36,810 nucleotides of DNA from Nitrospirota bacterium (GTDB taxonomy: Bacteria > Nitrospirota > Nitrospiria > SBBL01 > JAADHI01): assembly GCA_029261215.1 (NCBI GenBank), contig JAJDBT010000124.1, positions 1 through 36,810 of the forward strand, in the 5' to 3' direction. Positions 1,201 to 35,010 of this stretch are shown piece by piece (the stretch's first letter is position 1; every line of letters begins with the position of its first letter). The position numbers and the translations under genes are program-made. The notes beneath the pieces are model-generated. The model did not search any database and had not been told where the DNA came from. It saw only the letters and a program-made list of their open reading frames with translations.

Positions 1201-2955
1201 ATGAAACGAAGTCTCTTATTCTGTTCTCTTGCGATGGTGATATTGCTCAACGGGTGTTCCTATTTTATGAATAATGGTGGTTCCGGGAATAACCCGCCAT
1301 CCGCGCCAGAAGACCGAGGCGCAATCACCTTACAGAATGATTGGTATGGTGATCGTGCCGATCAGATTGTTTACCTTGATCAAAACTGGAGCGCTTATGA
1401 CAGTTTGTGGTTTTATTATACCTCTCAGGGTTCCGAACTGCTTTCATATGATTATTTTATAAACTTAGAGCAGCTCGACGGAGTGTCCTTATTGAGTGAT
1501 CCTCGCAACATGGCGCGGTTTCGATTTATTCCACAGAGACCAACCCAAAACAACCCAGACGGTTTGCCTCTTGGCATCGTTCGTAATAAAAATTATGTCG
1601 GTTTTACCTGTGCGGCCTGTCATACCAATCAGCTGAATTATAAAGGTACAGGGATTCGGATAGATGGTGGTCCGACCCTGGCCAACTTGCTCGAATTTTT
1701 AACTGTGCTTGAAAAAACGATTGAAGGGACACTTCAAGATCGTGCGAAATTTGACCGTTTTGCACACAGGGTTCTGGGGGAATTTTATAGTGAGGACGGC
1801 AAAAGTGCATTGAAGGCGGATCTGACTGAAACATTGACGGAAATGAGTATTTATAACCGTCGTAATTTTTCTGAAACACAAGATGGATTTGCGCGAATTG
1901 ATGCCATCGGTCGTATTTTTAATCAGGCGATCAAAGTGACCAGCGGCGATGATGTGAGTCTGTCCCCCAATGCCCCGGCCAGTTACCCTTTTATTTGGGA
2001 TACCCCTCAGCATGATTGGGTGCAATGGATCGGTCTTATCCCGAATGCCGCTGCCGGATCCCTGGCGCGAAATGCGGGTGAGGTGATTGGGGTTTTTGGC
2101 AAGGTGAAGGTTGAAAAGCAGGATTCCATTGTCAAAAAATTGCATGGCTATGACTCGTCGGTTGAGGCTAAAAACCTCGTTGAACTTGAGGAATGGGTTC
2201 GTCGGCTTGAATCGCCGCAATGGCCAGAAAATATTCTGCCGGAGATTGATGATTCCAAGGCGCGGCAAGGGGAAGTCCTTTATCAGAAAAAATGTATTTC
2301 GTGCCATCATTTGATTAACCGTTCAGACCCCAAACGGCTTATTCGTGCACAAATGTACGGCGTTGATCTTGTGGGCACTGACAAGACCGCTGCCCATAAT
2401 GCGGTCACGGCTGTGGCCCCGACCGGTATTTTGGAGGGCGGATTGTTGCCCCTTAAAAAAGATGAATTCTTTGGTCCGAAAGCGCCGGTCGCACTGATTA
2501 CACGGGACCTTTCCCTCGGAGTCGTGACCCGGAATAAAGAAGCTGCATTAGCGTCCGTCATTCTGGCCAAAAAAAACGGGAACGGTCTTAAGCCACTTCC
2601 GAAACAGGGAAAACATCCTGAAGATACGGAGCAAAATCCATTCGCCTCATTGATGTCCTATAAAGCCAGACCTCTTAACGGTATTTGGGCGACAGCGCCT
2701 TTTTTACATAACGGTTCTGTGCCGACCTTGTATGACCTGCTTTTGCCGGTGAACGAGCGTCCAAAAACATTTGGAGTGGGACTGCGTGAGTTTGACCCCG
2801 TTAAGGTTGGCTATTTAAATGACGTGAAGAATCCAAACATGCCTTTTATTTTCGATACCACTAAGCCGGGGAACAGTAATAGCGGGCACCTGTATGGTGT
2901 GGATCTGACTGAGGCAGAACGCTGGGTTTTGCTTGAGTACCTGAAATCTTTGTGA
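1201..2955 (+). CDS. RoxA-like di-heme cytochrome c lipoprotein (peroxidase superfamily)
   Basis: The 584-residue protein starts with a lipoprotein signal peptide whose lipobox LLNGC places the anchored Cys at residue 19. Two covalent haem sites are visible: CAACH at 137-141 and CISCH at 365-369. The C-terminal part carries GIWATAPFLHNGSVPTLYDL (from about residue 495), a signature shared by di-heme cytochrome c peroxidase-like proteins and the rubber oxygenase RoxA. Family members act in the periplasm on peroxides or, for RoxA/RoxB, cleave polyisoprene with oxygen. RoxA proper is somewhat longer and is not lipid-anchored as far as I know. The substrate is therefore open. A GGAG ribosome site precedes the ATG. 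The next gene is a thiol peroxidase, which fits a peroxide or oxygen stress theme but is not proof. Confidence 0.82.
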   Translation: MKRSLLFCSLAMVILLNGCSYFMNNGGSGNNPPSAPEDRGAITLQNDWYGDRADQIVYLDQNWSAYDSLWFYYTSQGSELLSYDYFINLEQLDGVSLLSDPRNMARFRFIPQRPTQNNPDGLPLGIVRNKNYVGFTCAACHTNQLNYKGTGIRIDGGPTLANLLEFLTVLEKTIEGTLQDRAKFDRFAHRVLGEFYSEDGKSALKADLTETLTEMSIYNRRNFSETQDGFARIDAIGRIFNQAIKVTSGDDVSLSPNAPASYPFIWDTPQHDWVQWIGLIPNAAAGSLARNAGEVIGVFGKVKVEKQDSIVKKLHGYDSSVEAKNLVELEEWVRRLESPQWPENILPEIDDSKARQGEVLYQKKCISCHHLINRSDPKRLIRAQMYGVDLVGTDKTAAHNAVTAVAPTGILEGGLLPLKKDEFFGPKAPVALITRDLSLGVVTRNKEAALASVILAKKNGNGLKPLPKQGKHPEDTEQNPFASLMSYKARPLNGIWATAPFLHNGSVPTLYDLLLPVNERPKTFGVGLREFDPVKVGYLNDVKNPNMPFIFDTTKPGNSNSGHLYGVDLTEAERWVLLEYLKSL

Positions 2956-6552: not shown

Positions 6553-7302
6553 GTGAATCTCACTGATTATTTTAGCCGCCATTTTGAAATTTTGTCTGCG
6601 AACACAGATGACCTGATTGAAGAAGTGCTTCGATTAAGATATCAGGTTTATTGTGTTGAGAAGACCATTTTGAAGGGGTCTCACCATACGGACTGTAAAG
6701 AGAGAGATCTCTACGATCCGCGTTCTGTCCATCACTTGATTCGGCATAAATTAACAGGGCTTTACGTTGCGACAGTCAGGTTGATTCTCCCTGATCTCAA
6801 CGACCCGGAAAGTCGATTTCCGATGGAAGAGTACTGTAGTCAATGTTTCTATAAAGACCTTAGCCTGTTACAAAATATTTCAAGGGATTCTTTGGCCGAG
6901 GTGTCTCGATTTCTTATTTCCAAATCACGTGAACGGCAAATTATGGAGGCCTCAAACTTGGACAAAAGAGGTCTTATTTCAGGATATCGCAGAAAAGATG
7001 GCCTGCTTTGTTATTTGCTTCTTTTTGGTTTGTTCAGTGCCGTTGTTCGAATGACCGCTCTTAATCGAATTTCATTTTGGTATGTAGGTGTCGAGCCTTC
7101 TTTTCACAGGTTGCTCACCCGCTTTGGTATTGACTTTACTCCGATTGGACCACTTTTTGAATATCACGGCCAGCGTCTTCCCTGTCTCGGATCAACAACC
7201 TCTATTTTAGCTGGTATTCAAAAGTACCGACCTGAAATTTGGAAGTTTCTAACCGAAGGGGGCAGGCTGGTACTTGCGGATTCGCGAGAAGGTCTATCTT
7301 AA
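6553..7302 (+). CDS. PEP-CTERM/exosortase-associated N-acyl amino acid synthase (GNAT fold)
   Basis: The 249-residue protein matches the family I know as 'putative PEP-CTERM/exosortase system-associated acyltransferase', related in fold to LuxI and to the FeeM/NasY long-chain N-acyl amino acid synthases. Recognisable parts are RYQVYCVEKTIL near residue 29, DPRSVHHLIRHK with VATVRLILP about 57-81, and AEVSRFLISK about 117-126. Members are proposed to join a fatty acyl group from acyl-ACP to an amino acid. The start is GTG at 6553; an in-frame stop at 6535 excludes longer forms. The ribosome site is poor (AAGG only two bases away), so a slightly later start is possible. It heads a four-gene run; no exosortase or PEP-CTERM substrate is seen in the window. 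Confidence 0.8.
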   Translation: MNLTDYFSRHFEILSANTDDLIEEVLRLRYQVYCVEKTILKGSHHTDCKERDLYDPRSVHHLIRHKLTGLYVATVRLILPDLNDPESRFPMEEYCSQCFYKDLSLLQNISRDSLAEVSRFLISKSRERQIMEASNLDKRGLISGYRRKDGLLCYLLLFGLFSAVVRMTALNRISFWYVGVEPSFHRLLTRFGIDFTPIGPLFEYHGQRLPCLGSTTSILAGIQKYRPEIWKFLTEGGRLVLADSREGLS

Positions 7303-7351
7303 ACTTAAATCACGTCGATATAAACACAACCTTGCGACGATTTTCAAAAAT

Positions 7352-7777
7352 ATGAAACGTCATTGTGTTACTATATTACTTGTTTTCCTCATGACCCTGA
7401 GTGCTGTATCGGGGGCTTGGGCTCAAGATGTCGTTGTGCATCCAGAGGTAGATAAGTCTGACATTTCCAGAAATGCACTTCGCGCAATTTTTGGAATGCG
7501 GCTTAGGAAATGGTCTAATGGTGAGCCGATTACGGTTTTTGTTTTAAGAGACGATTCTCCTGTTCATATCGAGTTTTCAAAAACAATCCTTCATATGTTT
7601 CCGTATCAGTTGAGAAGAGCTTGGGATCGCCAGGTTTTTTCTGGAACAGGGCAATCGCCATTTTTAGTGAATTCGTTGGAAGAGATGAGGACAAAAGTGG
7701 CCAGCACACCGGGTGCGATCGGCTACATACCCAGGGAAGGAGTTGATGAAAAGCTTAGTGTCCTCAAAGTTCGTTAG
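7352..7777 (+). CDS. Lone PstS-like periplasmic domain protein
   Basis: This 141-residue protein has a signal peptide ending near SGAWA-QD and then a single lobe of the PBP-like/PstS-like fold. Visible landmarks are VVVHPEVDKSDIS, ALRAIFGMRLRKW, a DDS...EFSKTIL segment, AWDRQVFSG and TPGAIGYIP. Full PstS proteins are about twice as long and have two lobes with the ligand between them, so phosphate binding should not be assumed. I chose the ATG at 7352, where the signal peptide begins; the frame is open back to a TTG at 7274 inside the previous gene. The gene overlaps the following porin gene by 32 bases, which argues for tight co-expression. A paralogous protein is encoded at 33819-34298. Confidence 0.82.
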   Translation: MKRHCVTILLVFLMTLSAVSGAWAQDVVVHPEVDKSDISRNALRAIFGMRLRKWSNGEPITVFVLRDDSPVHIEFSKTILHMFPYQLRRAWDRQVFSGTGQSPFLVNSLEEMRTKVASTPGAIGYIPREGVDEKLSVLKVR

Positions 7778-8960
7778 TCCTGTAGCCCTCCTTGAAGCGC
7801 TTGTCCTAGTCTTATGCTTGGGCAGTTTTGTCCCCTCTGTCTATGGAAATCTGCTTCCTGAGAACACGCAGATTCATGGCTTTGCGAGCCAGGGATTTAT
7901 TTTAACTTCTGAAAATCAATTTTTCGGAGATAGCCAGAATGGCAGCTTCAGGTTCTCAGAATTAGGGCTGAATACCTCTATCCAGTTTACGCCAGATTTC
8001 CAATTTGCAGCACAGGCTCTTTCCCGACAAGCAGGCCCAGGAGATAACGGCCAAATCCATTTGGATTTTGGTTTTCTGGATTATAAATGGATTTCGAATG
8101 AATCGGGTGCCTTGGGTATGCGTCTTGGGCGAGTCAAGAATCCACTCGGATTTTATAATGATACGCGGGATGTTGCCTTTACACGTCCCAGTATTTTTTT
8201 GCCGGAATCGATTTACTTTGACCGAACGCGTAACCTCGCGCTTTCTGCGGATGGTGCAAACTTGTATGCAGAATATCGAACCGATGCCGGAAGTTTTTTT
8301 TATGAGTTGGAGATTGGGTACCCGGATGTGGATGACCGTGAAACGGTCTTATCTTTTATCGGAGACTCGAATGGGGTACTTGATAATCAACTCTCGTATA
8401 TTACCCGTCTTCTTTTTGAAAAAGACGGTGGTCAACTGCGTTTTGGTTTGAGTGGTGCGCTCATAAATATTGAGTTTAAATCAGCTTCGTCACCCTCAGG
8501 CGACGGAATGATCCGCTTTAGACCCCTGATCTTGTCTTTTCAGTACAATTCGGAGCGCTGGAATCTGACTTCTGAATATGCCTTACGCTATTTTAAATAT
8601 CGTAATGTCGGTCAAATTGGAGATTTCACTAAAATGGGTGAAAGTATTTACCTGCAGGGCGCTTATCGGATTACCCCGCAAGTCGAAGGGTTTTTGCGTT
8701 ACGACCTTTTGTTCCAAGACAGAAATGATCGAAATGGGGCGGAGTTTGCGTTACACAATCCGGGCCGACCTGCCCACACACAATTTGCAAAAGATTGGAC
8801 GGCAGGTCTTCTCTGGGGCATGACCGACGCATGGATGACAAGGGTCGAATACCACTATGTTGATGGTACGGCCTGGCTCCCTTTGCTGGATAATCCTCTC
8901 CCATCAGAGACAAAACGATACTGGAATATGTTCTCCATTCTGCTTTCTTACCGCTTTTAA
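7746..8960 (+). CDS. Porin-like outer-membrane beta-barrel protein
   Basis: The 404-residue product has a signal peptide (cleavage near PSVYG), then alternating hydrophobic/polar strands throughout and a C-terminal FSILLSYRF ending in Phe, the recognition mark for outer-membrane assembly. Segments such as QIHGFASQGFI, RLGRVKNPLGFYND and FRFRPLILSFQYN-type strands resemble general porins of the phosphate-porin or DcaP-like type. I chose the ATG at 7746 because GGAAGGAG lies 3-10 bases upstream and it begins the signal sequence. It overlaps the PstS-like gene by 32 bases and is followed after 30 bases by the c-di-GMP gene. The solute is unknown; pairing with a periplasmic binding domain suggests uptake or sensing of a small ligand. 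Confidence 0.8.
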   Translation: MKSLVSSKFVSPVALLEALVLVLCLGSFVPSVYGNLLPENTQIHGFASQGFILTSENQFFGDSQNGSFRFSELGLNTSIQFTPDFQFAAQALSRQAGPGDNGQIHLDFGFLDYKWISNESGALGMRLGRVKNPLGFYNDTRDVAFTRPSIFLPESIYFDRTRNLALSADGANLYAEYRTDAGSFFYELEIGYPDVDDRETVLSFIGDSNGVLDNQLSYITRLLFEKDGGQLRFGLSGALINIEFKSASSPSGDGMIRFRPLILSFQYNSERWNLTSEYALRYFKYRNVGQIGDFTKMGESIYLQGAYRITPQVEGFLRYDLLFQDRNDRNGAEFALHNPGRPAHTQFAKDWTAGLLWGMTDAWMTRVEYHYVDGTAWLPLLDNPLPSETKRYWNMFSILLSYRF

Positions 8961-8990
8961 GCAGCACTCAAATAACAGTACAATAGAGCG

Positions 8991-11876
8991 ATGACCCCCA
9001 ACGCAAAAAATATTCAGAAATTTCTAAGCCTCAAATGGAAAACCCTGTTGTTTTTCAGTTTGGTGCTTTTACTGATCAACGCCTCCTTCCCGTATTTTGG
9101 CCACCAAAATCTGATGAAACATTTTGATAAAAGGCGGGAAGAGTCTCACGCACATTTTACAGAAGAATTTAACGGATTGATGGAACACACTGTGAAACGC
9201 TTGCAGCAGTTTGGGGGAGTGATCCCATCTCTTGAAGGGGTGAACACGGCATTAATCACAGGAAAAAATGAAGAGGTAATTAATGCCTTTGAAGATCATT
9301 GGCCCTTGCTCCAGTTGGATATGGGAATTGATCTGGTTCGGTTTTATTCCAAAACGGGAGATGAACTGGGTCGATGGGGAGATCCGGCTTTAATTACGGA
9401 GGAAGAGCGTCTCATTACGACATGGATAAAGGACGTGATCCAGAAGGAATACCCGGTGACGGCACTTTCCTGCCGAGTGATTTGTACTCAATATGTCATT
9501 GCCCCGATTTTGTACGAAGGTCAAAATATCGGTGCCATTTTGTTGGGCACTTCTTTGGCTGAGGTGATTGTCAACTTTCAGCAAATTTCAGGCCGCGATA
9601 TTGGGGTCATTATTGATCGGGATAAGGCGGAGTCTCCCGATCTGCCAAGGCCAAAAGATACCATACAAACAATTCTGCCATGGAACAAGAACATTGTCGC
9701 ATTGACCAATCTGCCATTGGCTCTTCCGTTGCTGCGTTCTGTCTCCGAGGAAACGACTTCATTTAACGACATTAAAAAAGGGCTCACCTTTTCTTTCAAC
9801 GAAAAACATTATGAATTGGGGTTCATCCCTCTTCGGAGTTTATCTGATCCGGAAGTAGGCGACCTGCTGATTATTGATGATATTTCAGATACCTTATTCG
9901 AGATTCGAAAAGCGACGCAGCAAAGCCTTATGGCAGGTATTCTTGGACTTATTTTGTCTGAAGGGCTGCTTTTGGCGATTTTGTGGAGACCGATGTCTCG
10001 TCTCCGCTTGATTACAAGAACCCTGCCTCTTTTGGCCAAAAGCGCTTTTCGGGAGGTCAGGACTACAGTGGGTAAGCGTAAACAGGGCTGGATTGATGAC
10101 GAAATTGATATTTTAGATGATACGGCGATTTCTCTCTCGTACCAGCTAGAAGAGCTTGAAACAGAAGTAAAAAAAAGAACAACGTCGCTTGCGGCGCGGA
10201 TGGAAGAACTCGCGAATGAAAAAGATTTTATTACAAGTCTGCTTGATACCGCACGGGTGATTATTTTGACCCAGGATGCAGAAGGAAAAGTCTTGATGCT
10301 CAACCCCTACACCACTCAGTTAACGGGCTATGGGGCTACAGAGCTCATCGGGCAAAATTTCTCAGCGTTTATTTCTGAAGAAAACCTCACGTCTGAAGTG
10401 ATCGGAAATCTCGTCGCTCTTCGTTTAGGACAAACAGAATATTTCTCTCACGAATCGGTCCTGGTTTGTCATAATCGTCCTTCTTGCCACATGATCTGGT
10501 TTCATTCTCGGTTGCTGCGAAAAGGAGAGAATGAACCCGTCGTTCTCTCTGTAGGCATGGATCTTACGGCTCGAAAACAGGCTGAGTTACAGCTTTCATG
10601 GCTGGCGGACCACGATCCGCTGACCGGGTTGTTTAATCGACGTCGTTTTCAAAATGAATTGGATCGTATTTTTTCTGAAGCGATTCGTTATGGGCGCTCC
10701 GGGGCACTGCTCTTTTTTGATCTGGATCAATTCAAGTATGTCAACGATACCCGTGGTCATCATGCGGGGGATGCTTTACTGAAGGTGGTGGCTAGTCAGC
10801 TTGCAAGGCTCGTGCGTTCCACGGACATTATCAGCCGGGTGGGTGGCGATGAATTTGCGATCGTCATCTCAGAGACCGATCAGCTTGGCGCGACTCAAGT
10901 GGCCAACAAAATTATCGAATACCTCAACGATGTCGAGGTTCCGGTACTTGAGCATTCCTATAAAGTGTCTGCGAGTATTGGTATTGCTCTTTTCCCTGAA
11001 CATGGTGAAACCGTTCAGGAATTGTTGTCCAATTCTGATCTGGCGATGTATCAGGCCAAAGAAAAAGGGCGGGGGAGGTGGCATCTCTTTACAGGTGAAG
11101 AAGCCATTAAAACCCGAATGAAAGAGCAGGTGTATTGGAAAGATAAAATAAAACAGGCTCTGGATCAGGATCGTTTTGTCATGCATTATCAGCCTGTTCA
11201 GGAGATCCAGTCCGGGCAGATTTTTTACTATGAAGCCCTGATCAGGATGCGTGACAAAGACCAGAGCCTCATCCCGCCGGGTTCATTTATTCCGGTTGCG
11301 GAACAGTGCGGCCTTATCTATGAAATTGACCATCTGGTGATTAAAAAAGTGATCTCCCGCCAGGCGGAATTAACCCTGCTGGGACACAAGGTGGTCTTCA
11401 CTTTAAATCTTTCGGGTTTCGCACTGAATGACCCTGCACTGCTCCCTCATCTGAAACAAACCTTGCACGAGACGGGGGCAGACCCGAAAAGCATCGTGAT
11501 TGAGATTACGGAAACAGCGGCGGTTTCAGACTTGGTCACGGCATGTAGTTTGATGAATGAGATTAAAGACCTGGGCTGCCGCTTTGCTCTGGATGATTTT
11601 GGTACGGGCTTCGCTTCTTTTAACTACCTCAAGCAGCTCCCCGTCGATATCGTCAAAATTGGAGATACCTTTATCAAGGAGATTTCCTCTCACCCGGATG
11701 ACCAGATTTTTGTGAAATCGCTTTGCGAGGTCACAAAAGGCCTTGGAAAAATGACGATTGCAGAGGGGGTAGAAGATGCGGTGACCCTTTCATTGTTGCG
11801 TGAATATTCTGTCGATTTTGCACAAGGTTGGCATGTGGGAAGGCCCGCGAGCACTATTCGTGGCGAAAAAGGCTAA
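8991..11876 (+). CDS. Membrane sensor with Cache, PAS, GGDEF and EAL domains (c-di-GMP turnover)
   Basis: The 961-residue protein has a TM helix at about 19-35, a periplasmic double-Cache-like sensor to about 310 and a second TM at about 311-331. Then come a linker, a PAS domain (about 410-530), GGDEF (about 540-700) and EAL (about 715-955). The cyclase motif GGDEF is intact at 618-622, and an RSTD inhibitory site sits five residues before it. The phosphodiesterase side is also intact: EAL at 748-750, NLSG, EITET, DDFGTGF and EGVED. Both synthesis and hydrolysis of c-di-GMP are possible; family knowledge suggests one dominates under a given signal. The periplasmic domain has a close Cys pair (C161, C165). 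It ends the acyltransferase-PBP-porin run, 12 bases from the convergent hutH. Confidence 0.93.
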   Translation: MTPNAKNIQKFLSLKWKTLLFFSLVLLLINASFPYFGHQNLMKHFDKRREESHAHFTEEFNGLMEHTVKRLQQFGGVIPSLEGVNTALITGKNEEVINAFEDHWPLLQLDMGIDLVRFYSKTGDELGRWGDPALITEEERLITTWIKDVIQKEYPVTALSCRVICTQYVIAPILYEGQNIGAILLGTSLAEVIVNFQQISGRDIGVIIDRDKAESPDLPRPKDTIQTILPWNKNIVALTNLPLALPLLRSVSEETTSFNDIKKGLTFSFNEKHYELGFIPLRSLSDPEVGDLLIIDDISDTLFEIRKATQQSLMAGILGLILSEGLLLAILWRPMSRLRLITRTLPLLAKSAFREVRTTVGKRKQGWIDDEIDILDDTAISLSYQLEELETEVKKRTTSLAARMEELANEKDFITSLLDTARVIILTQDAEGKVLMLNPYTTQLTGYGATELIGQNFSAFISEENLTSEVIGNLVALRLGQTEYFSHESVLVCHNRPSCHMIWFHSRLLRKGENEPVVLSVGMDLTARKQAELQLSWLADHDPLTGLFNRRRFQNELDRIFSEAIRYGRSGALLFFDLDQFKYVNDTRGHHAGDALLKVVASQLARLVRSTDIISRVGGDEFAIVISETDQLGATQVANKIIEYLNDVEVPVLEHSYKVSASIGIALFPEHGETVQELLSNSDLAMYQAKEKGRGRWHLFTGEEAIKTRMKEQVYWKDKIKQALDQDRFVMHYQPVQEIQSGQIFYYEALIRMRDKDQSLIPPGSFIPVAEQCGLIYEIDHLVIKKVISRQAELTLLGHKVVFTLNLSGFALNDPALLPHLKQTLHETGADPKSIVIEITETAAVSDLVTACSLMNEIKDLGCRFALDDFGTGFASFNYLKQLPVDIVKIGDTFIKEISSHPDDQIFVKSLCEVTKGLGKMTIAEGVEDAVTLSLLREYSVDFAQGWHVGRPASTIRGEKG

Positions 11877-11888
11877 AGAGGATGTTCT

Positions 11889-13421
11889 TTAATTGCTCCT
11901 GTCTGCTTTTGAAATAAAATGCTTTGACATAAAGACTCCCTCATCAATCATTTGGGCGATTTTTTCAAAATCAGCGTGAAGTGATCGGTCTTCATCCAAA
12001 GGCCGCACCTCAGACCGAAGTCTTGTGATGCCTTTGAACACGCCGCGTCCCGGTTTTAGGGGCGCGTGAAATGAGATGCCTTCTGCCGCCGCAAAAATTT
12101 CAATGGCAAGAATCCCTTTAATATTTTCTGTGATTTGCTGGAGTTTGAGGGCCGCCCCCATCGCCATACTGACATAATCTTCCTGATCAATCGAGGTTGG
12201 AATCGAATCAACCGAAGCGGGGTGTGCGAAAAGCTTGCATTCTGAGGCAAGTGCGGCGGCCGCCACTTGAGGCATCATCAATCCCGAATGAAGTCCTGGT
12301 CGGCGGGTTAAAAAAGGCGGCAGGTCGATGCAGTCCGGATCAATGAGTTGGGCAATCCGCCGTTCAGAAATAACGCCCAAATGCGTCAGTGCAATGGCCA
12401 AAAAATCGAGCGCAAGCGCGATGGGGTGACCATGGAAATTTCCGCCCGACAAGACCTCGTGCGTTTCTGGAAAAACAATCGGATTATCTGTGACGCTGTT
12501 CATTTCTGTGAGTAAAACCTGTTTAACTGTCTGGATGGCGTCCCGAACGGCCCCATGGACCTGGGGCATGCAGCGAATGGAATAGGGGTCTTGAACCCGG
12601 CTGCACGTGATGTGGGATACGCGGATTGCACTGCCTTTTAAGAGGTTTTGAATGTTTTTTGCCACTTGAACCTGCCCCGGATGAGGCCGTAATCGTTGCA
12701 ACTTTTCCTCAAAAGCCGTCGGGGTGCCCATCAAGGCTTCGAGTGTCATCGTCCCCGCTAAGTCGGCGGTGTCCGCAAGCCGTTCCGCAGTGTGCAGGGA
12801 CAATAAACCCAAAGACAGTGCGGCCTGAGTCCCGTTGACCAGAGAAAGTCCCTCCTTGGCTTCAAGTTGTACGGGCTCAATGCCAGCGCGTTTGAGTGCC
12901 TCGTTTCCGGGGAGTCGTGTCCCTTCAAAATAAGCTTCACCTTCGCCAATCAATAATAAAGCCAAATGGGCCAAGGGGATGAGGTCGCCGCAAGCCCCGA
13001 CGGAACCCCGGCTGGGGATGCGGGGATAGAGGGGTTGATTTAAGATCTGCAATAATTTCTCGACAATGACCGGCCGCACTCCCGAATGCCCCATTGCCAG
13101 CACATGTGCGCGCAAGAGCAAGATGCCCCGTACCGTATTTTCAGGGAGGGGCAATCCTGCCCCGCAGGCATGGCTTCGGATTAAATTCACCTGAAGCTGT
13201 TGGATATCGGCGTTCGATATGTGTTCATTGGCGAGTTTTCCAAAGCCGGTATTGACGCCGTAAATGACGCGGCCTTCGGACACAATGTCTTTCACGACCT
13301 TGTGGGCGCGGGTCATTTTTCCAATCCCTTTTTTAGTAAGTTGCACGGGTCGGCGGCGCAAAACGACATCAAAAAAATCAGAAAGTTTCAATTCTTGTCC
13401 GCTCAGATTCAGGGTTTTCAT
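11889..13421 (-). CDS. hutH: Histidine ammonia-lyase family protein with a Cys-type MIO motif
   Basis: The 510-residue protein covers the whole aromatic amino acid lyase family. VIYGVNTGFG supplies the catalytic Tyr (Y54), SHACGAG carries the His typical of histidine lyases (H84), and VQDPYSIRCMPQVHGA and DQEDYVSMA follow. The Glu in QED also favours histidine over phenylalanine or tyrosine. HutH makes urocanate and ammonia from histidine with the MIO group, which forms from Ala-Ser-Gly. Here that triad is A143-C144-G145 (codon TGC). A Ser-to-Cys change at this site in Pseudomonas HutH is known to leave activity, so the enzyme may work. Its start overlaps the upstream flavoprotein stop as ATGA. 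No hutU, hutI or hutG is near, so a role outside histidine breakdown is possible. Confidence 0.88.
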   Translation of the reverse strand: MKTLNLSGQELKLSDFFDVVLRRRPVQLTKKGIGKMTRAHKVVKDIVSEGRVIYGVNTGFGKLANEHISNADIQQLQVNLIRSHACGAGLPLPENTVRGILLLRAHVLAMGHSGVRPVIVEKLLQILNQPLYPRIPSRGSVGACGDLIPLAHLALLLIGEGEAYFEGTRLPGNEALKRAGIEPVQLEAKEGLSLVNGTQAALSLGLLSLHTAERLADTADLAGTMTLEALMGTPTAFEEKLQRLRPHPGQVQVAKNIQNLLKGSAIRVSHITCSRVQDPYSIRCMPQVHGAVRDAIQTVKQVLLTEMNSVTDNPIVFPETHEVLSGGNFHGHPIALALDFLAIALTHLGVISERRIAQLIDPDCIDLPPFLTRRPGLHSGLMMPQVAAAALASECKLFAHPASVDSIPTSIDQEDYVSMAMGAALKLQQITENIKGILAIEIFAAAEGISFHAPLKPGRGVFKGITRLRSEVRPLDEDRSLHADFEKIAQMIDEGVFMSKHFISKADRSN

Positions 13422-14659
13422 TTTTTTGTTCTCACAGTGGCGGTTTTTTTACCCAGACCCAGAGCACGCTTGATGACGAGAAATTGATAAACGGCGTAAA
13501 ATTGAACTGCGCTTTTAAAGGTGTAATAAAAAACCAGGTCTTTCAATGCATTCAGGGACAAACCTTTCAATGCCGAAAGCATCATCGTCATTTTGTCATC
13601 ATCTGGCTCACGATAAATTTTTTCGGTCAGGATTTCAGAGGTCGTCCATTTCATTCCGCAATAACGGCGCATCTCAGAAGGGTACTGATCCAACGATTGT
13701 CCCCTTTCTAAAAAGTTTCGTACATGCGCTGCGGCAATTTGTCCGCTTTTTAAGGCGTGTCGGATGCCTTCAAAGGTGAGGGGATTCACTGTCGAAACGG
13801 CATCGCCGATGGCTATTACGTTTTGATCCCGGTACTGATCCTGCTGATGACAGGTGTAGACGATGGTTTTCCCGTGTTTATCGAGAACATGAATGTCCTC
13901 TGTTTTGAGGCATTCCCGAATCAGTTGATCGAGATAATGTCCCATCGCTTTTTCGTGCGGGACGATTTGTTCATCTGGATAGTTTCGCCCCACACCGACT
14001 TTCAATCGTCGGTCTTGCATCGGGAAAATCCAGGCGTAACCTTGCGGCATCCACTTTGTGCCGATGTAAAATGAGAGACAGGAGGCATGACTTTGATAGA
14101 CTGTTTCTGGGACTTCTAGAAGGTATTCAATGCCGCGCCCGACGATCACTTTACGATTGCCGGGTTTGTTTTTTTGAGGACCCATCAAAACCCGCCGCTC
14201 CGATCCTGTGGCATCAATCAAGACTCGTGTTTCAATGGTTTCTATCTTTTCCGTTGTATTGTTTTTGAAATGAACGTGTGTCTGTTTGTCTTGTGTTTCG
14301 TGGCTGTGATAGGTGGTGCCTAAACGCACCGTGGAGCCATTTTTTGTGGTTTGCTCGGCCAAAAATGATCGGAGTTTTTTGAAATCAAGTACGACGGCAA
14401 TGTTTTCTTGCGCCTGCCAAAGGTGGTCATCATGGGAGGTGGCTATTTTAATTTGATGGCAAAAAGCCCCGACGACTTCAGACGGGAGCTTGAAATCGTT
14501 CAGAATTTCAAGCGGCGCGCCGCCGCTTGAAAAATCGTTCGCTGCGAAGGAGGATTCTTTTTCAAGCAAAAGGATGTGAAAGCCTGCCTTTGAAAGGCCG
14601 CGTGCCGCTTCGCCGCCTGCTGGCCCGGCTCCCACAATGACGACATCAAAATACTGCAT
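13418..14659 (-). CDS. FAD-dependent oxidoreductase, geranylgeranyl reductase/FixC-like
   Basis: The 413-residue protein opens with a Rossmann motif (VVIVGAGPAGGEAA, G10-x-G12-x-x-G15) and a Glu at about 33 for the adenosine ribose. A second FAD motif, AIGDAVSTVNPLTFEGIRHA, lies near residue 290. This is the layout of geranylgeranyl-reductase-family flavoproteins, which reduce isoprenoid double bonds or act as related monooxygenases and electron carriers. No signal peptide is present; a hydrophobic, aromatic-rich stretch near the C-terminus (FYYTFKSAVQFYAVYQFL) may touch the membrane. Its stop overlaps the hutH start by four bases, so the two are translated together. The true substrate is unknown. 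Confidence 0.82.
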   Translation of the reverse strand: MQYFDVVIVGAGPAGGEAARGLSKAGFHILLLEKESSFAANDFSSGGAPLEILNDFKLPSEVVGAFCHQIKIATSHDDHLWQAQENIAVVLDFKKLRSFLAEQTTKNGSTVRLGTTYHSHETQDKQTHVHFKNNTTEKIETIETRVLIDATGSERRVLMGPQKNKPGNRKVIVGRGIEYLLEVPETVYQSHASCLSFYIGTKWMPQGYAWIFPMQDRRLKVGVGRNYPDEQIVPHEKAMGHYLDQLIRECLKTEDIHVLDKHGKTIVYTCHQQDQYRDQNVIAIGDAVSTVNPLTFEGIRHALKSGQIAAAHVRNFLERGQSLDQYPSEMRRYCGMKWTTSEILTEKIYREPDDDKMTMMLSALKGLSLNALKDLVFYYTFKSAVQFYAVYQFLVIKRALGLGKKTATVRTKK

Positions 14660-32634: not shown

Positions 32635-33807
32635 ATGCAGCAGAAATTAACAAAACGACGATTAGGTTTTTGGGTGGGGTTTTTCCTGTTGATCCCGCTG
32701 ATCATTTTTTCAGAAGTTTTCGCTGAGATGGATGGGCAAGATCGGCTTAGTCATCTCAGTGAAAAGTATCCAGAGACGCCTGAGCTTGCCCCCATGCCCA
32801 CCTTAAAAATAAGAGGCTTTGGCGATTTGAGTTTCTTTGCCAGCAAGCAGGATCATGAATATGAAAGCGCGTTTAATCTGGGAAATATCAATTTGCTGAT
32901 CACCTCAAAAATTAATGAAAAACTGAGTTTTTTGAGTGAACTCGCCCCATATCGAGATGTCTATTTTTTAGAAAACACCAATCCTGGGTTTGGAAATTCT
33001 TCTTATTTCGAATTTCAGAGATTTGCTCTGAAATATACGATTTCTGATGCGCTGAATATCAGGGTGGGACGATACCACACCGCCTTGGGTTACTGGAATC
33101 ACACCTACCATCACGGTACCTGGCTTCAACCCTCTATTTTAAGACCTGAGATCTACCGTTTCGAGTTTCAGGGCGGTATTTTGCCAGAGCATTCTGTCGG
33201 GCTGGAGATCTTTGGATTCAAGGAAGTTCGTTTTTTTGATCTAAGATATCACATTGGCATTTCGAATGGCCGGGGAGAAAAGTTGTGGGTTGTCCAGAAT
33301 TTTAATGATGAAAATCGTTCAAAGGCCCTGACTTTGTTTTGGTCGGCAGAACCGCATTTTATCGAGGGTCTTCGTTTTGGAACGACTTTTTATATGGATA
33401 CTGTGCCGGAAGATAAGAATGACCCCAGTCAAGCGAATGCGACGGATGAGAAAATTTTTGGAAGCCACCTTATTTACATCGGTGAACGAATCGAGTTTTT
33501 GAGTGAGTTTTTCAAGATCTATCACGCCGAAACAAACACGGGTCAAGACTACGTCACGGAGGGTGGCTATGTGCATGCCAATATGAAAATGAAGACCATA
33601 ATCGCCTATTACCGTTATGACTTTATTGATTTTGCAGAGAACAATCCTGTTTTTTGGGGTTTTCAGCGGGATGTCAAAAAACACACGGTGGGGGTAAGGT
33701 GGGACATTTTTCCCTGGAATGCCCTTAAATTTGAGATTGGCCGCGTGAGTAAAAAAGACCGCGCGCCTGAACACGTTTTTGGCGTGAATACCTCATTCAC
33801 TTTCTGA
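32635..33807 (+). CDS. Second porin-like outer-membrane beta-barrel protein
   Basis: The 390-residue protein has a signal peptide (LGFWVGFFLLIPLIIF, cleavage near SEVFA-EM), then strand-rich sequence and a final FGVNTSFTF ending in Phe. LKIRGFGDLSFFAS opens the barrel; NIRVGRYHTALGYWNHTYHHGTW and FEFQGGILPEHSVGLEIFG recall OprP/OprO-like or related porins. The HTYHHGTW segment is rich in His. GAGAGGG precedes the ATG. It is followed after 11 bases by a PstS-like gene, the same partnership as at 7352-8960 but in the reverse order. Confidence 0.78.
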   Translation: MQQKLTKRRLGFWVGFFLLIPLIIFSEVFAEMDGQDRLSHLSEKYPETPELAPMPTLKIRGFGDLSFFASKQDHEYESAFNLGNINLLITSKINEKLSFLSELAPYRDVYFLENTNPGFGNSSYFEFQRFALKYTISDALNIRVGRYHTALGYWNHTYHHGTWLQPSILRPEIYRFEFQGGILPEHSVGLEIFGFKEVRFFDLRYHIGISNGRGEKLWVVQNFNDENRSKALTLFWSAEPHFIEGLRFGTTFYMDTVPEDKNDPSQANATDEKIFGSHLIYIGERIEFLSEFFKIYHAETNTGQDYVTEGGYVHANMKMKTIIAYYRYDFIDFAENNPVFWGFQRDVKKHTVGVRWDIFPWNALKFEIGRVSKKDRAPEHVFGVNTSFTF

Positions 33808-33818
33808 AAGGTCCGCTG

Positions 33819-34298
33819 TTGATCGTGCTCAGACGCTTCGCCGTTATTCCGATAATACTTTTGTGCCTTCTTGTTCCGGTCGTGGCACATCCCATGGATC
33901 TTGCGCTGATTGTTCACCCGGATAATAAAACAAATGACCTCTCTTCCCGGGATCTGTCCCGTATTTTTAAACAAGAAAAAAAACATTGGCCAGATCATCA
34001 AAAAATATTATTGATTATGCAGGAGGACGGAACCTTTGAAAAAAACGTGTTTGTGAAGAAGGTGTATAAATTGAGTCCTAATGAATTGAAACGGTTCTGG
34101 CTCGCCAAAATTCTGGATGGGCAGATTCTTTCTTTCCCAAAAACACTCGGTTCAAGTGAAGTGATCAAACGTTTTGTCAGCCAAATCCCCTCAGCCATCG
34201 CGTATGTTGACGTTACAGTCGTCGATAGCAGTATCAAGGTTTTGTCGATTGACGGAAAACGCCCTGGTGATGCAGGTTATTATCTGAGCCATGAATAA
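33819..34298 (+). CDS. Second lone PstS-like periplasmic domain protein
   Basis: The 159-residue product has a signal peptide (IPIILLCLLVPVVAHP) and a single PBP lobe with LALIVHPDNKTNDLSSRDL, RIFKQEKKHW, a QEDG...FVKKV segment, LKRFWLAKILDGQ and IPSAIAYVD. These align in order with the protein encoded at 7352-7777. The start is TTG at 33819, with AAAGG six bases before it; a GTG at 33825 is the alternative. Like its paralogue it lacks the second lobe of true PstS. It appears to be the last gene of a two-gene unit with the porin. Confidence 0.8.
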   Translation: MIVLRRFAVIPIILLCLLVPVVAHPMDLALIVHPDNKTNDLSSRDLSRIFKQEKKHWPDHQKILLIMQEDGTFEKNVFVKKVYKLSPNELKRFWLAKILDGQILSFPKTLGSSEVIKRFVSQIPSAIAYVDVTVVDSSIKVLSIDGKRPGDAGYYLSHE

Positions 34299-34440: not shown

Positions 34441-35010
34441 ATGAACAATATCTCGACAGCACTAAAAATTGTGGGTGTGGCCTCCGAGTTGATTCAAACA
34501 CATGGTTACCATGCCTTCAGCTATCGTGACCTTTCGGAACGGGTGGGGATTAAAACTTCAAGTATTCATTACCATTTTCCGACAAAAGCTGATTTGGCTA
34601 AGGCGGTCATTGAACATTGTTATCATGTTTTTTTGCAGAAGCTGGATGTGTTCGCGCTTGAGACTTCTGCGTCAAAAATGATGCAGGCTTATGCAAATTC
34701 TTTTGCAGAAACCTTTCGTCAAGGAGGGCGTATCTGCCCTTGCGCGAGCCTGGCCTCAGATTTGAACGGACTGCCGGATGAAGTTCGGGTCGAAATGAGT
34801 CGTTTTGTAGACGCACACGAAAAATGGCTGGTTTCCGTTTTACAGCAGGGCATAGATGAGGGCGAATTTAGAGAGATTGGGAATCTTGAGCAAGCCGCCC
34901 GGAATATTTTTTATACCCTGGAAGGCGCAATGCTGATCGCGAGAACGTCTTCAGTCGCACGGGTGAAAGATGCCGGACATTATATCCTGTCTGAATTAAT
35001 GGTCGATTGA
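34441..35010 (+). CDS. TetR/AcrR-family repressor, probably autoregulated and Cys-responsive
   Basis: The 189-residue protein has an N-terminal helix-turn-helix (FSYRDLSERVGIKTSSIHYHF, of which the recognition part is KTSSIHYHF) and a helical ligand domain. GGRICPCASLASD puts C99 and C101 where related TetR proteins such as NemR carry redox-active Cys, so it may sense electrophiles or oxidants; that is inference. No ribosome site precedes the ATG, and the promoter spacing predicts a leaderless mRNA. The 18-bp palindrome in its promoter recurs before the zinc-ribbon gene downstream, suggesting that both are its targets. Confidence 0.9.
   Translation: MNNISTALKIVGVASELIQTHGYHAFSYRDLSERVGIKTSSIHYHFPTKADLAKAVIEHCYHVFLQKLDVFALETSASKMMQAYANSFAETFRQGGRICPCASLASDLNGLPDEVRVEMSRFVDAHEKWLVSVLQQGIDEGEFREIGNLEQAARNIFYTLEGAMLIARTSSVARVKDAGHYILSELMVD

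Follow-up and report, generated by a model that had tools for sequence, protein, structure and literature searches.

A conserved four-gene unit joins an acyltransferase of the N-acyl amino acid synthase type to a single-lobe PstS-like protein, an outer-membrane barrel and a membrane-bound c-di-GMP enzyme across two bacterial phyla

The locus and its gene products

The window analyzed here, by which we mean the whole stretch of 36,810 nucleotides, is one contig from a draft genome of 3.37 Mb; the relatives of this genome that carry names belong to Nitrospirota, Candidatus Manganitrophaceae among them. Four genes follow one another in it:

6553..7302, plus strand: acyltransferase (AT); GTG start, 249 residues, TIGR03694/FeeM-like, AHL-synthase fold
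7352..7777, plus strand: mini-PBP, a small periplasmic-binding-protein-like product; ATG start at 7352, 141 residues, signal-like N-terminus, one PstS-type lobe
7746..8960, plus strand: outer-membrane beta-barrel (OMP, porin-like); ATG start at 7746, 404 residues, C-terminal Phe
8991..11876, plus strand: membrane c-di-GMP enzyme (DGC); 961 residues, TM-dCache_3-TM-PAS-GGDEF-EAL

With ATG codons at 7352 and 7746 taken as starts, the coordinates agree with the layout in the initial annotation, with 49 bases between the AT and mini-PBP genes, a 32-base overlap of the mini-PBP and OMP genes, and 30 bases between the OMP and DGC genes. No terminator-like sites were found in the intergenic gaps of the unit, those inside the unit all lying within reading frames; a promoter scan returned fewer sites than in shuffled sequences, sigma-54-like sites were not above chance, and no Rfam RNA was found in the window. 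The unit encodes no exporter gene. Facing it on the opposite strand (11889-14659) are hutH (histidine ammonia-lyase) and a gene for a geranylgeranyl-reductase-like flavoprotein; hutH also adjoins the unit in genomes G002, G003, G005 and G007, and does not in G004. Elsewhere in the window (1201-2955) a gene for a RoxA-like cytochrome c-type protein (PF21419, 5.7e-19) lies beside thiol peroxidase and proS genes, a neighbourhood kept in G005.

The AT matched PF13444 (Acetyltransf_5) and scored 206.5 bits against TIGR03694, well past the curated cut-off of 111.95, which was also passed by those unit ATs of other lineages that were scored. Its structure model (pLDDT 90.9) was closest to LasI, RpaI and FeeM, and the 14 best PDB matches of this model were AHL synthases or FeeM, all of which bears out the earlier assignment to the FeeM/NasY-type acyltransferases. 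No AHL-synthase family model was among the matches listed for the window AT, and relatives gave sub-threshold TraI matches only. Ten AT residues were invariant across 50 sequences, including R29, E50, D52, D55, R76, E116, S118 and R119; from its position in an E-x-S-R motif, E116 is the putative catalytic glutamate, equivalent to Glu95 of FeeM; the matching residue has a catalytic role in enzymes of the FeeM type (PMC4897644).

The mini-PBP fell just short of the PBP_like_2 cut-off (26.4 bits against 27), matching one lobe only (profile positions 95-184 of 267); the match to PstS, which also rests on a fold search, is to the central lobe only (residues 79-187 of 252 in 4q8r). The phosphate-loop SGT is replaced by SPVH (RDDSPVH in the mini-PBP versus REDGSGT in 4q8r), and a distant relative in Pseudoalteromonas retains the SGT loop. 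The SGT at mini-PBP residues 97-99 was considered as a candidate for this loop and ruled out by the alignment to PstS. A structure model built from 9 sequences was of moderate confidence only (pLDDT 69.6). The protein had been described as a lone PstS-like domain; the homology to PstS stands, with the correction that what is present is a single lobe without the phosphate-loop motif. As a single lobe is unable to form the usual two-lobed ligand cleft, the mini-PBP may have a structural part to play instead of binding a ligand.

Homology to PstS raises the question of phosphate. In a unit that responds to phosphate limitation, the PstS-like protein and the barrel would signal the presence of phosphate or some other oxyanion, while the AT would supply a phosphorus-free aminolipid in place of phospholipid, just as OlsB supplies ornithine lipid. 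The AT does share PF13444, and its relatives give weak matches to OlsB models; however, these scores are far under the cut-off, the mini-PBP is a single lobe with its phosphate loop replaced, Pho-box-like sites are not above chance, and neither an OlsA-like gene nor a pst gene was seen adjoining the unit. We regard this explanation as improbable.

For the OMP, neither Pfam nor NCBIfam gave a family match that passed its cut-off. Its signal-like N-terminus and C-terminal Phe, together with weak barrel matches in relatives, suggest a barrel of the outer membrane, and "outer-membrane beta-barrel" is a safer name than the earlier "porin". The OMP is specific to this kind of unit. Elsewhere, related OMPs and mini-PBPs accompany other sensors, including chemoreceptors, and because of this varied pairing the two together look like a general input platform. 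At the order-level loci L085-L104, and at L106 and L114, mini-PBPs of this type have, in most cases, genes for an outer-membrane barrel and a sensor (GGDEF-EAL or MCP) as neighbours but no acyltransferase gene. The window itself holds a second OMP gene (32635-33807) and mini-PBP gene (33819-34298), and a TetR gene (34441-35010) comes after them without an intervening sensor gene. The sibling genome G005 (L086, 834-5973) has a GGDEF-EAL sensor, broken into two reading frames, between its PBP and TetR genes, from which it seems that the sensor gene was lost from the window's genome.

The DGC comprises a TM segment, a dCache_3 domain (residues 50-301), a second TM segment, a PAS domain, a GGDEF domain (residues 539-695) and an EAL domain (residues 719-952). 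Its motifs are intact, namely GGDEF, an RxxD five residues ahead of it, EAL, EITE and DDFGTG, in line with the initial description of a Cache-PAS-GGDEF-EAL protein with both output domains preserved. In one group of loci without an AT (L172, 5770-8598; L183, 5582-8395) the GGDEF motif is degenerate, reading TGSGEF, while the EAL part retains DDFGIGF and has ECLVR or ECLIR at the EAL position.

Conservation, arrangement and descent of the unit

The four-gene order is conserved in the Nitrospirota family of the window's genome: the AT is present in seven of the eight family genomes, in nine copies, and each copy immediately precedes the mini-PBP and OMP genes, with the DGC gene next. The one family genome without an AT also lacks the unit-type mini-PBP. 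The window's genome carries a second, diverged unit on contig C31, whose AT is ~41% identical. In G003 (L018, 5578-10937) the AT, PBP and OMP genes occur as a tandem duplicate before one DGC gene, along with an OMP fragment, and the unit of G002 (L019, 6430-8856) has two OMPs; the front part of the unit thus duplicates on its own.

Roughly 31 genomes from two phyla contain the same four genes, a recurrence which makes the unit more than chance. On a megaplasmid of Halomonas sp. PA16-9 the order is mini-PBP, OMP, DGC and then AT. Our order-level sample comprised 392 Pseudomonadales genomes (the order of Marinobacter salexigens), 47 of which encode the OMP at E ≤ 1e-30; among the 40 loci read from these OMP-bearing genomes, 14 have the order mini-PBP, OMP, DGC, AT, and nearly all the remainder have mini-PBP, OMP and DGC without an AT. 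Among 20 loci read from Gammaproteobacteria sampled at class level, 10 have an AT no more than about 0.5 kb from the PBP gene or adjoining the DGC gene, in these positions:

L226, L227, L228, L231, L232: AT upstream, same strand
L225, L236, L239, L241: AT divergent
L230: AT beside an inverted DGC

The four genes are therefore found together in at least four arrangements. The OMP, mini-PBP and sensor also occur without an adjoining AT in many genomes.

The initial annotation had proposed that the AT belongs with the other three genes as a system. Its adjacency to them extends well beyond this genome, to the family and to Gammaproteobacteria, in the latter with the same genes rearranged, and the proposal is strongly supported by the family conservation, the duplication within genomes, the presence in Gammaproteobacteria, the togetherness through rearrangements and the involvement of more than one AT lineage. 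Literature searches, which covered papers readable without subscription, found no existing account of the four-gene unit, and we consider it well supported that the unit is real, conserved and apparently undescribed.

The name of TIGR03694 refers to the PEP-CTERM/exosortase system. That neither an exosortase nor a PEP-CTERM protein is near the unit, as first noted, holds for the window by motif scan, but not for the genome, which has two exosortases on other contigs. The same is true of the Manganitrophaceae, whose exosortases are on other contigs, yet every AT lies within a unit. In the Pseudomonadales sample the separation was complete: an exosortase was found in 0 of 14 unit genomes versus 31 of 31 genomes with a TIGR03694 gene elsewhere (Fisher p = 6e-12, a value that overstates independence as the genomes are related).

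In the OMP tree the AT-bearing units of both phyla fall in one supported region, with the Nitrospirota units inside the gammaproteobacterial set (moderate support), and this nesting suggests transfer. An earlier version of this result, in which the AT-bearing OMPs formed one exclusive clade, was weakened once Gammaproteobacteria were added, as some AT-less loci fall inside. For the ATs themselves a single clade of unit sequences was rejected, both for Nitrospirota and Pseudomonadales (AU p = 6.1e-7) and with other Gammaproteobacteria added (AU p = 1.6e-5); exosortase-linked ATs fall between the unit AT lineages, with several tips long-branched and exact placements accordingly uncertain. For the N-terminal part of the DGC (p = 0.33) and the mini-PBP (p = 0.30) a single clade of AT-bearing units was neither shown nor rejected. 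Since the unit ATs are not one clade, the pairing of AT and sensor probably arose more than once, and the combination of one OMP region with ATs from outside any one clade points to different synthases having joined a related sensor set. To judge from these trees, either different synthases were recruited repeatedly or one replaced another, and both courses would imply selection for such a synthase alongside the sensor set.

It could be argued that the genes are merely neighbours, the AT acylating a protein or making an unrelated metabolite, with a proximity inherited by descent or transfer and no functional coupling. The nesting of the Nitrospirota units within the gammaproteobacterial OMP set does make transfer as a block likely; the at least four arrangements and the non-monophyletic ATs are, however, hard to explain in this way, as is the location of all nine family AT copies within units, and we find such passive linkage very improbable.

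A candidate signalling circuit

Our preferred reading, to which we give a probability of roughly 0.5, is that the four genes belong to a single signalling unit in which an acyl-amide product sensed in the periplasm would set the level of c-di-GMP. The functional idea of the initial annotation, a lipid-like product made, sensed and converted into c-di-GMP output, agrees with all of our results, and ScrABC of Vibrio parahaemolyticus offers a precedent for it. The AT would make the acyl-amide; this lipid would exit the cell, and then either re-enter or accumulate in the periplasm, possibly via the outer-membrane barrel of the unit itself. The mini-PBP with its ligand, alone or together with the Cache domain, would read the product and dock on the dCache domain of the DGC, and docking would shift the output of the GGDEF-EAL part between c-di-GMP synthesis and breakdown. 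The step that ties synthesis to sensing, that the AT product is the ligand of the sensor set, we hold to be an evenly balanced proposition. The products of related synthases are long-chain amphiphiles and need not be free signals, and the sensor set often occurs without an adjacent AT, so a synthase next door is not required.

The same facts can be turned into the main alternative, in which the AT stands on the output side and does not supply the ligand: the sensor set would read an outside cue (a surface, an anion or a lipid) and set c-di-GMP, and the AT would make a co-expressed surfactant or membrane aminolipid that belongs to the same lifestyle. The sensor set is widespread without an AT, the products of related synthases are surface-active (PMC4897644), and the divergent AT beside the set in four loci fits co-regulation as well as it fits shared function. 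The AT-bearing units are, however, concentrated in one part of the OMP tree and were joined there by different AT lineages, which argues for a match between product and sensor; we consider the output explanation unlikely, though a serious contender.

Returning to the signalling unit, a more specific form of it can be put forward tentatively, at a little under even odds: a self-made acyl-amide autoinducer, from an enzyme of the AHL-synthase/FeeM fold, would be read in the periplasm by a Cache domain and its single-lobe PstS partner and passed straight on to c-di-GMP. This would be a quorum-like circuit, shared by two phyla, that is independent of exosortase and of LuxR-type receptors. If true, such a circuit would mean that N-acyl amino acid synthases can serve in signalling; what long-chain N-acyl amino acids do in bacterial physiology has been described as still unclear (PMC4897644). 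These synthases have so far been discussed mainly with exosortase, and in the unit, across two phyla, they are tied to a membrane-bound c-di-GMP enzyme. In Halomonas-type bacteria the synthase-sensor unit occurs in genomes wholly without exosortase, and the role of these acyl amino acids thereby becomes a question open to genetics in culturable bacteria. In addition, the outer-membrane barrel, half-PstS and sensor make up a widespread, apparently undescribed sensor platform, with GGDEF-EAL enzymes and chemoreceptors among its outputs; a review from 2022 states that, within the periplasmic-binding-protein clan, studies of c-di-GMP networks cover SBP_bac_3 only (PMC8846402).

Comparison with known systems

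The mini-PBP is homologous to one lobe of PstS and differs from it in being half-size, without the second lobe, with the SGT loop replaced and with no transporter genes adjoining. The AT resembles the TIGR03694/NasY-type synthases and FeeM in passing the TIGR03694 cut-off, in its match to FeeM and AHL synthases and in the invariant E116. As far as Craig et al. 2011 is cited in PMC4897644, the described synthases are single genes or PEP-CTERM/exosortase-linked, whereas the partner of the unit AT is a c-di-GMP sensor set. A connection to c-di-GMP has been drawn for Nas343 and Nas354, N-acyltyrosine synthases fused to a PilZ domain, for which it was proposed that c-di-GMP regulates the synthase by binding (PMC4897644); unlike these, the unit has a partner that is predicted to make and break c-di-GMP and that carries a periplasmic sensor.

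In NspS-MbaA of Vibrio cholerae a lone periplasmic binding protein controls a bifunctional GGDEF-EAL enzyme, as we propose for the unit, but its ligands are polyamines and its description includes no acyltransferase and no outer-membrane barrel (PMC8967002). A close parallel in gene content is ScrABC of Vibrio parahaemolyticus, where a single operon encodes the enzyme that makes the signal, a periplasmic binding protein, and a membrane-bound GGDEF-EAL enzyme able to switch from making c-di-GMP to degrading it and back (PMC11315295; PMC10269520). The unit likewise encodes a synthase, a periplasmic binding protein and a GGDEF-EAL enzyme together. ScrA, however, is an aminotransferase whereas the unit AT is an Acetyltransf_5/TIGR03694 acyltransferase, and the ScrABC operon is without the outer-membrane barrel that the unit has. 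By this analogy the unit would work like ScrABC, yet its different synthase and added barrel place it outside the ScrABC systems.
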